NCBI GenBank assembly: GCA_025359445.1
Contig: JANYGB010000053.1
Location: forward strand, 25,440 to 89,439
Direction of reading: 5' to 3'
Length of the DNA stretch: 64,000 nt
DNA from: Sphingomonadaceae bacterium
GTDB taxonomy: Bacteria; Pseudomonadota; Alphaproteobacteria; Sphingomonadales; Sphingomonadaceae
The notes below the pieces were generated by a model. The model did not search any database. It was not told the origin of the DNA and saw only the letters and a program-made list of their open reading frames with translations. The position numbers were made by a program, and so were the translations under genes. This document shows positions 1,298 through 8,890 of the stretch, piece by piece (the first letter of the stretch is position 1; each line of letters begins with the position of its first letter).

Positions 1298-3115
1298 ATG
1301 ACTGACTTGGCCTTGATCCGCAATTTCTCCATCATCGCGCATATCGACCATGGCAAGTCGACCCTCGCCGACCGGCTGATCCAGTTCACCGGAGGCCTCA
1401 CCGACCGCGAGATGAGCGAGCAAGTCCTTGATAACATGGACATCGAAAAAGAGCGCGGGATCACCATCAAGGCCCAGACGGTCCGCCTCAGCTACACCGC
1501 CGACGATGGCCTGACGTACGAGCTCAACCTGATGGACACCCCCGGCCACGTCGACTTCGCCTATGAAGTCAGCCGCAGCCTCGCCGCGTGCGAAGGCGCG
1601 CTGCTGGTGGTCGACGCCGCGCAAGGGGTCGAAGCGCAAACCCTCGCCAACGTCTACCAGTCGATCGAACACGACCACGAGATCGTGCCCGTCATCAACA
1701 AGATCGACCTCCCCGCCGCCGAACCCGAAAAAGTCCGCGCCGAGATCGAGGAAGTCATCGGCCTCGACGCCTCCGAGGCCGTCCTCACCAGCGCCAAATC
1801 GGGCATCGGCATCAAGGAAGTGCTCGAAGCCGTCGTCAAAAAGATCCCGCCCCCCAAAGGCGACGCCGCCGCGCCGCTCAAGGCCATGCTGGTCGACTCA
1901 TGGTACGATCCCTACCTCGGCGTCGTCATCCTCGTCCGCGTCATCGACGGGGTGATCAAAAAGGGCCAGCAAATCAAATTCATGGCCGGCGGGACCGAAC
2001 ACCTGATCGACCGGGTCGGCTGCTTCACCCCCAAGATCGAGCAATTGTCCGAACTCGGCCCCGGCGAAATCGGCTTCATCACCGCGCAGATCAAGGAAGT
2101 CGCGCAGGCTAAGGTCGGCGACACGATCACCACGGTCAAAGCCGGCGCGGTCAAGGCGCTCGCGGGCTTCAAGGAAGTCCAGCCGGTGGTGTTCTGCGGG
2201 CTGTTCCCGGTCGACGCGGCGGACTTCGAAAAACTGCGCGAGTCCATCGCCCGCCTGCGCCTTAACGACGCCAGCTTCACCTTCGAAATGGAAAGCAGCG
2301 CCGCGCTCGGCTTCGGCTTCCGCTGCGGCTTCCTCGGGCTCTTGCACCTTGAGATCATCCAGGAGCGCCTGACCCGCGAATACGACCTCGACCTGATCAC
2401 CACCGCGCCATCGGTGGTCTACCGCATCCAGCTGCGCAAAAGCAAAACCGACGACGCGCGCGAGCTGCTGCTCCACAACCCGGCCGACTATCCCGATCCC
2501 AGCCGGATCGAGCAGATCGACGAGCCGTGGATCAAGGCGATGATCTACACGCCCGACGAATACCTCGGCTCCATCCTCAAGCTGTGCCAGGACCGGCGCG
2601 GGGTGCAGACCGGGCTGACTTATGTGGGCGGCCGCGCGCAAGTCAGCTACGAATTGCCGCTCAACGAAGTGGTTTTCGATTTCTACGACCGCCTCAAAAG
2701 CATCAGCCGCGGCTATGCCAGCTTCGATTACGAGCAGATCGGCCTGCGCGAAGGCGACCTCGTCAAGATGTCCATCCTCGTCAACAACGAGCCGGTCGAC
2801 GCGCTCTCCATGATCGTCCACCGCGACAATGCCGAAGCGCGCGGCCGCGGCATGTGCGAACGCCTTAAAGACCTGATCCCGCGCCACCTGTTCAAGGTGC
2901 CGATTCAAGCCGCGATCGGGGGCAAAGTGATCGCCCGCGAGACGATCCAGGCAATGCGCAAGGACGTGACCGCGAAGTGCTACGGCGGCGACATCAGCCG
3001 CAAGAAGAAGCTGCTCGACAAGCAAAAGAAGGGCAAAGCCCGGATGCGCGAGTACGGCAACGTGTCGATCCCCCAAGAAGCCTTCATCGCGGCGCTACGC
3101 ATGGGCGAGGAATAG
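1298..3115 (+). CDS. lepA: Elongation factor 4 (LepA GTPase)
   Basis: [53 protein letters not shown]; full-length LepA. Confidence 0.98.
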
Positions 3116-3119
3116 AAAA

Positions 3120-3210
3120 GCCCCTCCCCGGTGGGGAGGGGTTGGGGTGGGGGGTACCACGCTGGTGTCGAACCCCCACCCCCAGCCCATCCCCGCCGGG
3201 GAGGGGAGCC
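3120..3210. repeat. Palindromic GC-rich intergenic repeat downstream of lepA
   Basis: GCCCCTCCCCGGTGGGGAGGGGTTGGGGTGGGGG ... CCCCCACCCCCAGCCCATCCCCGCCGGGGAGGGG inverted arrangement. Confidence 0.7.
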
Positions 3211-3314
3211 AGAAGCCAACAAAACTCCGCTCAACCTGAGCCTGCCCAACCCCCCAAAAACCTGCTAAGACCCCACCCAACCAATCACCTGACCAAAAGA
3301 GAACGATCCCCAAA

Positions 3315-3638
3315 ATGGCTACCTACAAAGACCCCACCTTCGAAGAACGCACCGCACTCGCCCGCCAGGCCCGCGAAAAGGCCCTAGCCAAACTCGCCGC
3401 CAAACCCGCGCTCGATCCGGCGGTAGTGGCCGAACGCAAAGCCGCCCAGCAGGCCCGCGAACAAGCCGCCGCCGAAAAAAGCGCCGCCAAGAAAGCCGCG
3501 ATCGTGCAGGCAAAGGCCGACAAGCTGGCCGCCGCCGAAGCCGCCGCCGAGGCCGCAAAAGCGCCGGTGGTGAGCGAAGAGGAACTGAAGGCCGCGCGTG
3601 ATGCAAAGTACGCGGCGCGGAAGAAGCGCAAGGGGTGA
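3315..3638 (+). CDS. DUF6481-like small Lys/Ala-rich protein
   Basis: MATYKDPTFEERTALARQAREKALAKLAAKP...; recalled family resemblance. Confidence 0.7.
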   Translation: MATYKDPTFEERTALARQAREKALAKLAAKPALDPAVVAERKAAQQAREQAAAEKSAAKKAAIVQAKADKLAAAEAAAEAAKAPVVSEEELKAARDAKYAARKKRKG

Positions 3639-3750
3639 ACTTATTTTACTCCACGCTGGGTGCCGCAAATAGGTCGCAAAGCAAGACTTTGACGCCACCT
3701 TTCGAGCGTAACGGCTTGTAGCTCCTCTCGGAGTATGCTCAACTTACTCA

Positions 3751-6192
3751 ATGAAAAACGAGCGCGCGTCTTGGTCTGAGTTAAGCATAGAGGACCTCTT
3801 TTTTGCTTTTCGCAAAGCGAAGGTTGATTGCTATTTTGAAACCTCGATTAGAGTCGCCGAGAAATTTGTTCGGTACGAAGAGAGGTTAGGAGAGCGCTTA
3901 GCGACTCTGCTGCAAAGATTGCAGGCTGGCGATGTCAAAGAGGTCTTCTCAGAAGGTCTTGGCGAACCCGCGATTTTTCCAAAGAAAGTAAGTCTGGGAC
4001 GAGCCGATTCCAGCAAATCATTGCATGCTTTTTTCTCAGATTCGAAACGCGCATTCAAGAAGGAACGAAGTCGCGGTCTTATTCCCGAGTTCCGAATGAT
4101 TGGGGATTTTGCAGTAGAGGTTCACATAATTTCTGCGTTGTGGGTCAATTTAATTGGACACAAATTTGACGCTCAACTTGGCGATAGTGCAGTCGCATCT
4201 CGGCTACGGCGCTATAGGAGGGATTCCGTTGGAAGCGGGATTGGTGATTACCATCTAGAAGCGATTGGCTCCTTCGAACCTTATTTCGAGCCATATCGAA
4301 AATGGAGAGACGGCGGCCTTGACGCGATCAAAGTCAATTTGGAAAAGGGCCAGGGGGTTGTTGCACTGACTCTTGATGTTGGAAACTTTTATCACAGCAT
4401 CGATCCGAGCTTTGCTGTGCACCCAGCATTTCACGAATACGCTGGCATCAAACTTGCCTCATTTGACATTGAATTTACTCAAAACATAACGGACGCCTTA
4501 AATGCGTGGTCTAAGAAATGCGCTGATAAGGTCGCAATTTTTGGCTGCGAACGCGAAACATTCGGGGGTCTTCCGATCGGTCTTTCTGTAGTTAGAGTGC
4601 TTTCAAACATAATTTTACTTTATCTTGATCGAGAATTGGAGAATTCTGTATTCCCAATTTACTACGCTAGGTATGTTGATGACGTTTTTCTTGTCATTCG
4701 AGACAATGAAGCATTCGAAAGTCAAGATGATATCTGGCAAATGCTGCAGCTTCATATCCCGTCGCTCAAGCGCGAGGACGATGGAAATGTGGCGTTGCAG
4801 CTGCCTAATTGGGCTGGAAATACTCGATTGTTTTTTCAGGCCGAAAAGCAGAAGTGTTTCTTTTTGAGTGGGGAGTCTGGCCTCGACCTACTCGACAACA
4901 TTGCTTCGCAAATCCGGGAGGTCTCAAGCGAGCGTCGACTGATGCCCCTTCCGGAGCAGCTCGACCAGACTCAGTCCGCAAGGGCTCTAACAGCCACTGA
5001 TACTGCTGATGAAGCGGATAGTTTGAGGAGAGCGGACGGCCTGACTCTCCGGCGTCTTGGCTGGTCAGTACTCCTTCGATCGGTGGAAGTGTTGGCGCGC
5101 GATTTGTGCCCAAAAGATTGGGTAGATGAGCGAAACCGATTTTACGAGTTTGCTCATGATCACGTAATTCGGCCTGACAAGATATTAGAGCAGATTGACC
5201 GCTTGCCGCGACTTTTTTCCATCGCGGTTTCACTCGGCGATTGGAAGGCTGCGTTAAGGATTTGGCGAGAGACAATATCGGCTATTTACGCACTGCAAGA
5301 TGCTACGGCCTTTAGTGTAATGAGGATCAACGGCCACACTTGCCAAAGCAACCCAGAAAAGGTGTGGGACGAGACCCGCTTGCAAGTGCAACGATTCTTT
5401 CGTAAGGCGCTTATTCGAGCCATTGGCATCGAGCAAGGTAAGGCCAAGGCATTTTCGGTGTTGGTAGGAGATTTGGATTTCGAGACTTCGGAGCTTTTTT
5501 CCCTCGCACAATCGGCTAGAGAAACCGATTGGGGGAGGATCCCCTACAAAGAGCATTTGCGATTGTATGCCGACCGGCACGCTCCCATTCGGGTGGACGA
5601 GGAAATTCTTTATGGTCGGTATGGCCATGAGACTGAACTTCGTCAGTTCTTGACGCGTTCAGTTAATCGGGTGGACCCGCAATCCGGTGCAAGGGTAAGG
5701 CATGAACTGGGCGAAACGCCGTACGTCTCCCTACTACCGTTTCTCTTTCCCACTAGAGCCTATACACCAGAGGAAATCGCGCTCTATTTGCCGTCGGAAT
5801 GCGTCTCTGACGAGCCCATTGCAGCAGCTCACGCCTGGTCCGAGTACACTCGAGCGGTACGCGGTGTCTGGGTCCGCAGCGAGCTCGCAGATGAAATGAC
5901 CCTGCCCAATCCGAGTGCCTCAAGAGATATTGACGACGGCGACAGCAATACGCCTCAATCACCTGGGCAAGGTGCACGCACAATTGAACCCAAAGATCCG
6001 CCGAAGCATATCGTGATTGACGACGGCGAAAGCCACTTCCCGGTTCGTGTAGGAATTACTAGCTTCGCCACGTCAGACGCTACTTGGTCACTGGGTGCCA
6101 CGGGCAATCCGGACCTGTCGCCCAATCGTTACAAGTCGATTGCGAAAATCGTAAATCATGCCCTGAAGGAGGAAAAAAGCCAGATTATCTAA
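3751..6192 (+). CDS. Reverse transcriptase (RNA-directed DNA polymerase), N-terminal part of an RT-nitrilase fusion, DRT1/UG-like
   Basis: VVALTLDVGNFYHSIDPSF (domain A), GLPIGLSVVRVLSNIILLYLD, YARYVDDVFLV (YVDD at 4672-4683); C-terminus VRVGITSFATSDATW...NRYKSIAKIVNHALKEEK looks like the start of a nitrilase domain that continues in the -1 frame. Confidence 0.85.
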   Translation: MKNERASWSELSIEDLFFAFRKAKVDCYFETSIRVAEKFVRYEERLGERLATLLQRLQAGDVKEVFSEGLGEPAIFPKKVSLGRADSSKSLHAFFSDSKRAFKKERSRGLIPEFRMIGDFAVEVHIISALWVNLIGHKFDAQLGDSAVASRLRRYRRDSVGSGIGDYHLEAIGSFEPYFEPYRKWRDGGLDAIKVNLEKGQGVVALTLDVGNFYHSIDPSFAVHPAFHEYAGIKLASFDIEFTQNITDALNAWSKKCADKVAIFGCERETFGGLPIGLSVVRVLSNIILLYLDRELENSVFPIYYARYVDDVFLVIRDNEAFESQDDIWQMLQLHIPSLKREDDGNVALQLPNWAGNTRLFFQAEKQKCFFLSGESGLDLLDNIASQIREVSSERRLMPLPEQLDQTQSARALTATDTADEADSLRRADGLTLRRLGWSVLLRSVEVLARDLCPKDWVDERNRFYEFAHDHVIRPDKILEQIDRLPRLFSIAVSLGDWKAALRIWRETISAIYALQDATAFSVMRINGHTCQSNPEKVWDETRLQVQRFFRKALIRAIGIEQGKAKAFSVLVGDLDFETSELFSLAQSARETDWGRIPYKEHLRLYADRHAPIRVDEEILYGRYGHETELRQFLTRSVNRVDPQSGARVRHELGETPYVSLLPFLFPTRAYTPEEIALYLPSECVSDEPIAAAHAWSEYTRAVRGVWVRSELADEMTLPNPSASRDIDDGDSNTPQSPGQGARTIEPKDPPKHIVIDDGESHFPVRVGITSFATSDATWSLGATGNPDLSPNRYKSIAKIVNHALKEEKSQII

Positions 6193-6896
6193 TATTTCCT
6201 GAACTATCTATCCCGGAGCGTTGGGTTAGTACGATATCGAGTAAGTTACGAGAGGGGCGTATTAGTCTAATTGCAGGACTAGATTATCGTCGTTACTCAG
6301 GAAAAAAAATTGATAGTTCAGCCGTGATGGTTCTGAACGATCGTAGACTCGGATATTCGACCTCATTGCAAATTAGGCAAAGAAAGTCTCAGCCAGCGCC
6401 GGGGGAGGAAAAGAATCTCCTAAAAAGCCATGGCCACGATTGGCGAAGCCCCGCGACCGAACAAAAGCCTGTATATGTGCACAACGGATTTCATTTTTCA
6501 GTACTCGTTTGTAGTGAACTCCAGAACATTGAATATCGATCAAAATTGCAAGGGTATGTGGACTGTCTCTTTGTAATTTCATGGAATAAAGATCTTGAAA
6601 CCTTTTCAGCGCTTGTTGACTCTGCAAGCCTTGATGTCCATTCTTATGTTGCTCTATCTAATAATTTGCGCTATGGAGACAGTCGAGTTCGGAGTCCTGC
6701 GAAAGATTCGTTTAAGCGCGATGTTTGTCGTGTGCGGGGCGGCGTTAACAATCAGCTCGTTGTTGTCGAGATTGACCCTCGCATCCTGAGAGCTCAGCAA
6801 AGCCGGGCCAAGCGGTGGCCTGACGATGGTGACGCATACAAGCCAGCTCCTGAAGGTTTTGCCATTTCGCCCAGCAGATTCACCACTCCCAGTTGA
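6177..6896 (+). CDS. Carbon-nitrogen hydrolase (nitrilase)-like domain, in -1 frame relative to the upstream RT
   Basis: KPDYLIFPELSIPERWVSTISSKLREGRISLIAGLDYR (FPEL Glu), FHFSVLVCSEL (candidate Cys at 6510-6512), ends KPAPEGFAISPSR; no in-frame ATG near the domain start (ORF-track start 6084 is TTG). Confidence 0.75.
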   Translation, partial: KPDYLIFPELSIPERWVSTISSKLREGRISLIAGLDYRRYSGKKIDSSAVMVLNDRRLGYSTSLQIRQRKSQPAPGEEKNLLKSHGHDWRSPATEQKPVYVHNGFHFSVLVCSELQNIEYRSKLQGYVDCLFVISWNKDLETFSALVDSASLDVHSYVALSNNLRYGDSRVRSPAKDSFKRDVCRVRGGVNNQLVVVEIDPRILRAQQSRAKRWPDDGDAYKPAPEGFAISPSRFTTPS

Positions 6897-6969
6897 ATGG
6901 CGCATTGGGATTGCTGTGGGATGGTGGGATTACGGTGACAGGTGCGAAAACCCCCAAACCTTCCTAACC

Positions 6970-7362
6970 TTAAATCCCCGGCCATTCCTCCAGCTTCAAC
7001 CTATCGATCCGCCGGAAGTCCTTGCCGTTGCGGGTGATGAGCGTCGCGTCGCGGGTGATGGCCTGCGCGGCGATCAGGCGATCGAGGGTGGTGCGTCTGT
7101 CATAACCGAGGTTGTAGACGATTTTGCCGTAAGTGAGAATGTCGGCATCGGTGAACATCTGAGTGGCGATGGTTTGCAGGAAGCGGACGAGCAATCGCCG
7201 GCGCAGCGGTGCTTGGCTCGGATCGGCGTTGACGCCGTTTTCGAGTTCGATCCGCGTGATCATCGAGATCACAGGAAGGTCCGGCAGTTCGTCGATCAGC
7301 CGCAAGGTTGCCGGGTGTGCGTCGCGCAGCGCTATAGCGACGTCGGTGTCGATAAAAATCAT
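6970..7362 (-). CDS. vapC: PIN domain toxin, VapC family
   Basis: MIFIDTDVAIALRD...VISMITRIELENGV...DADILTYGKIVYNLGYDRRTTLDRLIAAQAI. Confidence 0.85.
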   Translation of the reverse strand: MIFIDTDVAIALRDAHPATLRLIDELPDLPVISMITRIELENGVNADPSQAPLRRRLLVRFLQTIATQMFTDADILTYGKIVYNLGYDRRTTLDRLIAAQAITRDATLITRNGKDFRRIDRLKLEEWPGI

Positions 7363-7391
7363 GCGGCGAAAGTCATGCTGGTGCGGCGCGA

Positions 7392-7658
7392 TCAGAACAG
7401 TTTCTTGCGATCGGGCCAGTCGAACGGATCGCGCTTTTGCACTCCTCCTGGCGGCGCGCCGATTGCTGCCATGTCTGCCGTCAACTTACGCAACACGCGG
7501 CGAACATCAGCACTGTCGCGCGTGAGCTTGATCGTCACCGTGTCGCCGGTCTTGTTCATCTCAAGTTCCGCTCCCGCTGGAATGGCGAATCCCTTGGGCA
7601 GCCGCACCGCGACGCTGTTGCCGGACTTGAAGGTTTTGGTGTGGACCGGCTTTGTCAT
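7392..7658 (-). CDS. vapB: AbrB/MazE-type antitoxin, VapB family
   Basis: MTKPVHTKTFKSGNSVAVRLPKGFAIPAGAELEMNKTGDTVTI (SpoVT/AbrB fold); ATG at 7658; directly upstream of vapC. Confidence 0.8.
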   Translation of the reverse strand: MTKPVHTKTFKSGNSVAVRLPKGFAIPAGAELEMNKTGDTVTIKLTRDSADVRRVLRKLTADMAAIGAPPGGVQKRDPFDWPDRKKLF

Positions 7659-7661
7659 GCT

Positions 7662-7684
7662 GCCGTATATACGGGATATACGGC
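7662..7684. promoter_or_regulatory. Palindromic operator candidate upstream of vapB
   Basis: GCCGTATAT-ACGGG-ATATACGGC: perfect 9-bp inverted repeat with 5-nt spacer, 3 bp upstream of the vapB ATG. Confidence 0.6.
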
Positions 7685-7686
7685 GA

Positions 7687-7911
7687 TCAGGCAAGTCGCC
7701 CCGCATCCACATGCTTGATCCAATCCCGCACCACCCATTCCCCCATGCTCGCCGCATCGTGCAGGCCCGGCTCGACCACCGGGCGCATTTCGGGGAAGGC
7801 CATGCGGCCGGGTCTCGGCCTGGCGGGGGGCAGGCCGATGTCGGGGAAGCCGCGTTTGAGGAAGTCGGGCAGTTCTCCTTCGACAGGCTCAGGTTGAACG
7901 GGCTTTTTCAT
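7687..7911 (-). CDS. Small hypothetical protein (MKKPVQPEPVEGELPDFLKRGFPDIGLPP...)
   Basis: ATG at 7911; ATGA overlap with the stop of the upstream CDS; proximal part encoded by a REP-like sequence. Confidence 0.55.
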   Translation of the reverse strand: MKKPVQPEPVEGELPDFLKRGFPDIGLPPARPRPGRMAFPEMRPVVEPGLHDAASMGEWVVRDWIKHVDAGRLA

Positions 7912-8747
7912 GAGTCTTGGTCCTTGTCGTCGGTGAAGTCGCTGAGTTCGATGCGGCGGGTGACGTTGGCGCCGTCCCACTCGTCGCCTGCCTGCGTGCC
8001 GGGTTCGTCGCCGCCTTCGTCGCCCGGCTGGTCGATCAGCGCCGCGCTGGCCGGCTCGTTCCAGGCGGTGCGGCCGGCCTCCTGGTCGGCATCGGCGGCG
8101 GCGGCGTAGGCTTCGTACAGCGCGCGGGTGGCGCTGGTCATATCTTCCAGCCAGCCTTCCTGCAGCCGGTCGAGCTGGGCGTCGAGCGCGTCGTTGTTTT
8201 CGTCGGCTTCGGCGGCCTCTTCGCGGGCGCGCTCTTCGTCCCACTCTTTGCGCCATTGCTTTTTGAACCGGCTGAGGCGGTTTGCGTCTTGCGGATCGTG
8301 GAGCGAGCCGCGCCGCGCGGTGACGCGGCTATCCGCGGCGAAGCGAGTGGGCGCGCGGTTTTTGAGCATGAACATCAGCAGGCGGTCGTTGTGGACGATC
8401 CGGCTGCCGATCAGCTTGCCGTAGGAATAGACCGGGACTTCGGTGCCGTAGAGCGCGCGCTCCATCGCGATGTCCTCGAGTTGCTGGACGCCAAGCGCGA
8501 GCGCGGCTTCCCACGCGGTGCGGAAGGTGGTGGCTTCAGTGTGGCGGCGCAGCAGGTAGGCGCCCTCGGGGGTCATGTTGACGCGGTGAGCGGCGGCCTT
8601 GACGCTGCCGGTGTCGGCCAGCGCCTCGATGAAGCCCAGCTGGCGTTCGGGGGTCCAGCCGTCGTGGCGCTGGTAGTGGCGCGGGACCGGGGTGAAGGCG
8701 GGGAGCGGGGCTTTTTTGCCGCGCGGGCGGGCTTTGTCGATGGTCAT
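7908..8747 (-). CDS. HTH / terminase small subunit-like hypothetical protein
   Basis: MTIDKARPRGKK...GWTPERQLGFIEALADTGSVKAAAHRVNMTPEGAYLLRRH; start chosen at 8747. Confidence 0.6.
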   Translation of the reverse strand: MTIDKARPRGKKAPLPAFTPVPRHYQRHDGWTPERQLGFIEALADTGSVKAAAHRVNMTPEGAYLLRRHTEATTFRTAWEAALALGVQQLEDIAMERALYGTEVPVYSYGKLIGSRIVHNDRLLMFMLKNRAPTRFAADSRVTARRGSLHDPQDANRLSRFKKQWRKEWDEERAREEAAEADENNDALDAQLDRLQEGWLEDMTSATRALYEAYAAAADADQEAGRTAWNEPASAALIDQPGDEGGDEPGTQAGDEWDGANVTRRIELSDFTDDKDQDS

Positions 8748-8890
8748 GGTGGGCTCCGGGGCATGGGCGCGGGGAAGTGGGGGCGCGGGAGCATTGCGCA
8801 GGTGAGGGCCTGTAGGAAAGTGTTTTGGCGGTTGAGCTTCTACTCCGCAGGTTGACAATGCGGGGCAGGGCGCGCTTCACTGCGGCTTCC

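Follow-up and report, generated by a model that had tools for sequence, protein, structure and literature searches.

Layout and family of the RT-nitrilase gene

Within the window, that is, the whole stretch of 64,000 nucleotides of Sphingomonadaceae DNA analysed here, the forward strand carries a gene that joins a reverse transcriptase (RT) to a nitrilase. Its 5′ part (3751–6192, 813 amino acids) encodes an N-terminal region, the RT domain and a helical region, and its 3′ part (from about 6183 to 6896, in the −1 frame) encodes the nitrilase (carbon-nitrogen hydrolase) domain. The motifs named in an earlier note on this DNA lie where it had located them. ORF 3751–6192 contains LTLDVGNFYHSID, GLPIGLSVVRVLSN and YARYVDDVFLV, and the −1 frame has FPELS at 6195, RQRKSQPAPGEE at 6375, VLVCSEL at 6501 and YKPAPEGF at 6837. 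The gene is the sole RVT_1 match in the genome. Its neighbours on the reverse strand are a VapC-like toxin with a PIN domain (6970–7362; PIN E 9.7e-15, VapC E 5.4e-18) and a VapB-like antitoxin (7392–7757; VapB E 1e-9). An Rfam search gave no RNA near the gene, and neither a sigma-70-like promoter nor a terminator was found at it.

The two halves, joined as one protein for this purpose only, were aligned with eight full-length members of the UG5 group. Hardly any variation is seen in this alignment at the RT aspartates, at YVDD or at four nitrilase residues, namely Glu (FPEL), Lys (RQxK), Glu (PAxxE) and Cys (CSE); the window copy has all of them. The first catalytic aspartate belongs to motif A, LTLDV (4366–4380), and corresponds to D215 of the protein from genome G430, while the YVDD is encoded at 4672–4683. 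In the nitrilase half of the window gene the four residues stand in FPEL, RQRK, PAPGE and VCSE, the last with its Cys codon at 6510. The domain terminates in a tail, YKPxPEGF...R...P (6837–6893), whose K, P, P, F, R and P are nearly invariant in the family. Identity to the G430 protein amounts to 61% for the RT half and 74% for the nitrilase half, which keeps an open frame and a coding-like base pattern.

When both halves were searched against the UG and DRT models of PADLOC, as the earlier note had suggested, RT_UG5-nitrilase came out on top, with E 5.5e-175 and 582 bits for the RT half (profile positions 12–684 of 907) and E 1.1e-93 and 313 bits for the nitrilase half (680–900 of 907), values that chance could not account for. 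This profile is the best of all UG models for the gene; the Drt1a model reached E 3.1e-10 and 36.6 bits with the RT half and E 5.2e-18 and 62.3 bits with the nitrilase half, where it trails by about 250 bits. Pfam recognized RVT_1 alone in the RT half, slightly below the cut-off (E 1.5e-6), and matched no domain in the nitrilase half; the NCBIfam matches on the gene were to RTs only and sub-threshold. An RT of the group II intron, retron or DGR type, which the earlier note had named as a placement that would refute it, was rejected, retron St85 (3.5e-8) and group II (3.9e-4) being below their respective cut-offs.

It is barely conceivable that the gene is a true DRT1 (UG1) system. Such a system has the same order of RT, helical region and nitrilase, and its solved nitrilase (PDB 9yfd) is matched by the nitrilase half with E 8.6e-6, but the UG5 model scores far above Drt1a on both halves, and on this ground the gene is assigned to UG5. 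As read from these profiles, the window gene is a member of UG5, a class 3 UG/Abi group sister to DRT1/UG1. Both UG1 and UG5 were earlier described as nitrilase-fused RTs (PMC8934634), and the nitrilase-bearing UG/Abi RTs were put in class 3 (PMC13275509). The likeness to DRT1/UG1 (9YFD, PMC13275509) extends over the RT, the helical region and the C-terminal nitrilase, with homology detectable in both domains (UG5 alignment profile against 9YFD, E 8.4e-20, spanning the RT and nitrilase regions), and includes a conserved lysine-bearing C-terminal tail. The two belong nevertheless to different UG groups, and DRT1 has 1229 amino acids against about 1050 in the alphaproteobacterial UG5 members. 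Of the DRT1/UG-type gene that had been claimed, the UG/Abi RT-nitrilase stands and the DRT1 does not; nor is it a "divergent or unassigned" UG member, as UG5 is already assigned and PADLOC provides a separate model for it (PDLC03780). With that UG5-nitrilase system the window copy shares the full domain order, the whole-length profile match and the catalytic residues; it differs in being split by a frame break, with no single uninterrupted fusion ORF, and thus belongs to the group by descent, as a disrupted member.

The frame break between the two domains

The RT frame closes at the TAA of 6190–6192 and the nitrilase is read in the −1 frame, so that the halves do not form one ORF. The break (6165–6192) falls at an A-run near 6174–6179. 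In a codon alignment with six relatives (G430, G371, G359, S. hankookensis, C. mobilis and E. coli; 40–64% identity to the window copy), each has a single ORF across the junction, the nitrilase following the RT part without a change of frame, and the codons used there are varied and non-slippery, without A-run. Because the six relatives run through in one frame with unrelated codons, the break is private to the window copy, in line with the frame repair that the earlier note implied. Judged from the sequence alone, either a frameshift has occurred recently or the assembly is in error. The window copy probably makes no working nitrilase, and its product is probably an RT protein without effector, from which protection is not expected unless the assembly has introduced the break. 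The "stand-alone antiphage system" proposed before applies to intact members of the family and not to this frame-broken copy.

A sequencing or assembly error, with the gene intact in the organism, would challenge only the broken state of the copy and is a serious possibility, although we hold it to be somewhat short of even. The change is a single one in an A-run, and both halves keep open frames, family-level conservation and all catalytic residues; a recent real mutation would look identical, however, and real decay is plausible, as the copies of C. mobilis and genome G1213 also appear broken. Slippage at the A-run, whether programmed or phase-variable, giving RT-only and RT-nitrilase proteins, is very unlikely: the in-phase codons GAG GAA AAA AGC include no canonical −1 heptamer, no relative has an A-run or frame change here, and in DRT1 the RT and the nitrilase work together, even if a run of six A does sit at the domain border and the −1 product would be the full fusion. 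The nitrilase half could also be an independent gene, as in the UG6 systems, given that separate nitrilase genes accompany the UG6 RT within this bacterial family. This we consider highly improbable, for the first conserved strand region (VRVGITSF...) is missing from the half and sits in the RT frame, the sole upstream start, the TTG at 6084, lies in a stretch unconserved in that frame, and the nitrilase is fused in close relatives. A private frame break, recent or introduced by the assembly, is the reading retained.

In the C. mobilis copy (L005:954–4097) the first 120 residues or so fail to align in its frame, and the gene looks broken; the G1213 copy (L053:7091–10129) consists of back-to-back pieces of 594 and 417 amino acids. 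These further, apparently broken copies suggest repeated loss of the UG5 system.

Matches in four genomes (G324, G379, G477 and G447), considered as split UG5 genes, were rejected since they are UG6. UG6-type systems are seen in four sphingomonad genera, with a UG6 RT, a separate nitrilase and a DnaG-like protein side by side, the RT assignment having been tested in one of the four loci (L044). A DEDDh-exonuclease-like gene is common to three of the four. In the UG6 system (RT_UG6, RTasNitrilase and DnaG-like) the nitrilase is related to that of UG5, but, unlike in the UG5 fusion, it is a separate gene accompanying an RT of another group and a third component.

Acquisition of UG5 and the spot downstream of lepA

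The earlier note described the region as AT-richer than its flanks and horizontally acquired, and both composition and comparison agree with this. The UG5 gene has a GC content of 49% against 62.5% for the window, and a GC3 of 0.39–0.50 against 0.84–0.87 in the nearby lepA and TonB receptor genes. A block of 5.2 kb (3643–8836) comprising the UG5 gene, the VapBC pair and ORF 7908–8858 is missing at the matching site of G122, the closest relative at the locus (DUF6481 91% identical), where, by blastn and the junction sequence, the flank that ends at 3643 is joined straight to the one that resumes at 8836. As ten other lepA loci have 7908-type genes, G122 may have lost part of the block by deletion, but the UG5 gene itself, being AT-rich, looks imported. 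No tRNA is found at the insertion, and therefore tRNA integration was not the route here. A phage-borne origin is unsupported, as the queries used gave no UG5 relative in viral contigs or phage records. In the UG5 comparison dS is saturated.

UG5 is absent from all 194 other genomes of the genus, and the full fusion occurs in three of the 346 other genomes of the family. These belong to three other genera, and all three have it at lepA. Hence in four genera, that of the window included, UG5 is located directly downstream of lepA; the G359 copy comes after the end of a DUF6481-like gene, an arrangement close to that of the window. The tree of UG5 copies, a weak test, fits one or several arrivals of the four lepA-site copies. 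The UG5 genes of S. hankookensis and C. mobilis are elsewhere, adjoining recombinase or integrase genes. In 40 other genera the genes right after lepA vary; the 57 proteins found there include six HNH_2, three GmrSD and two C5 methylases, together with an EcoRI-type methylase, an MvaI/BcnI endonuclease and an AbiEii-like AAA protein. Among 55 control proteins 5–8.6 kb further on, none of those families had two or more members; for families with a single match, the listing covered the first 25 families. The stretch that follows lepA (3115–8858 in the window) is a variable spot of Sphingomonadaceae, often with restriction or other defence genes.

Outside the family, E. coli WP_000222103.1 is a UG5 homologue with 40% identity over its full length and the nitrilase fused as in the window gene; unlike the window copy, it is intact. 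A homologue at least 99% identical to the E. coli plasmid copy is carried by 252 of 5426 complete E. coli genomes (about 5%). In the two E. coli genomes viewed, the UG5 site has AbiE genes, an integrase remnant and an adjoining tRNA-Thr. The E. coli records viewed annotate UG5 as "hypothetical protein" or "RNA-directed DNA polymerase".

A proposed DRT1-like mechanism for UG5

DRT1 acts by abortive infection and requires both RT and nitrilase activity (PMC13275509). It primes DNA on S402, 77 residues past D325, and forms dormant filaments closed by the C-terminal tail (PMC13275509). Protein-primed untemplated DNA synthesis was shown for DRT1 and also for DRT5S and DRT5L (PMC13275509); we found no UG group stated there for the latter two, and it is our guess from the names that they are the small and large UG5. 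Other class 3 DRTs are said to lack conservation of S402 (PMC13275509), and for this reason the primer and regulation of UG5 may differ from those of DRT1. The literature searched yielded no phage assay on any protein bearing the UG5 label.

A serine is kept in every aligned UG5 member, Ser393 in the window (SSERR, 4924–4938, forward strand) and S400 in G430, respectively 82 and 83 residues past the last Asp of YVDD, against 77 in DRT1. By analogy with DRT1 we propose Ser393 as candidate DNA primer and the YKPxPEGF tail as candidate lid, the tail possibly corresponding, judged from sequence, to the C-terminal lid of DRT1. In the model, an intact UG5 member would synthesize short stretches of DNA without a template, bound covalently to the protein, with Ser393 as candidate primer. 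The attached DNA would drive assembly of the nitrilase and keep it dormant. Phage replication would release the nitrilase, the freed enzyme would attack an essential amide or nitrile metabolite, and the cell would die or halt before phage release.

We consider it quite probable that the window carries a UG5 RT-nitrilase horizontally acquired into the defence-rich spot after lepA and later interrupted by a single frame break, the family working by a DRT1-like mechanism. That UG5 primes DNA on Ser393 to control the fused nitrilase and that the A-run is in addition an on/off switch of the effector is, as a joint proposal, scarcely probable.

As a locus this is nothing unusual: the defence family is catalogued, and the copy is broken. 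With the conserved serine and tail, the DRT1 mechanism can be put to the test in UG5, and the spot adjacent to lepA, repeatedly holding UG5 and restriction genes in sphingomonads, can be mined for new defence genes.
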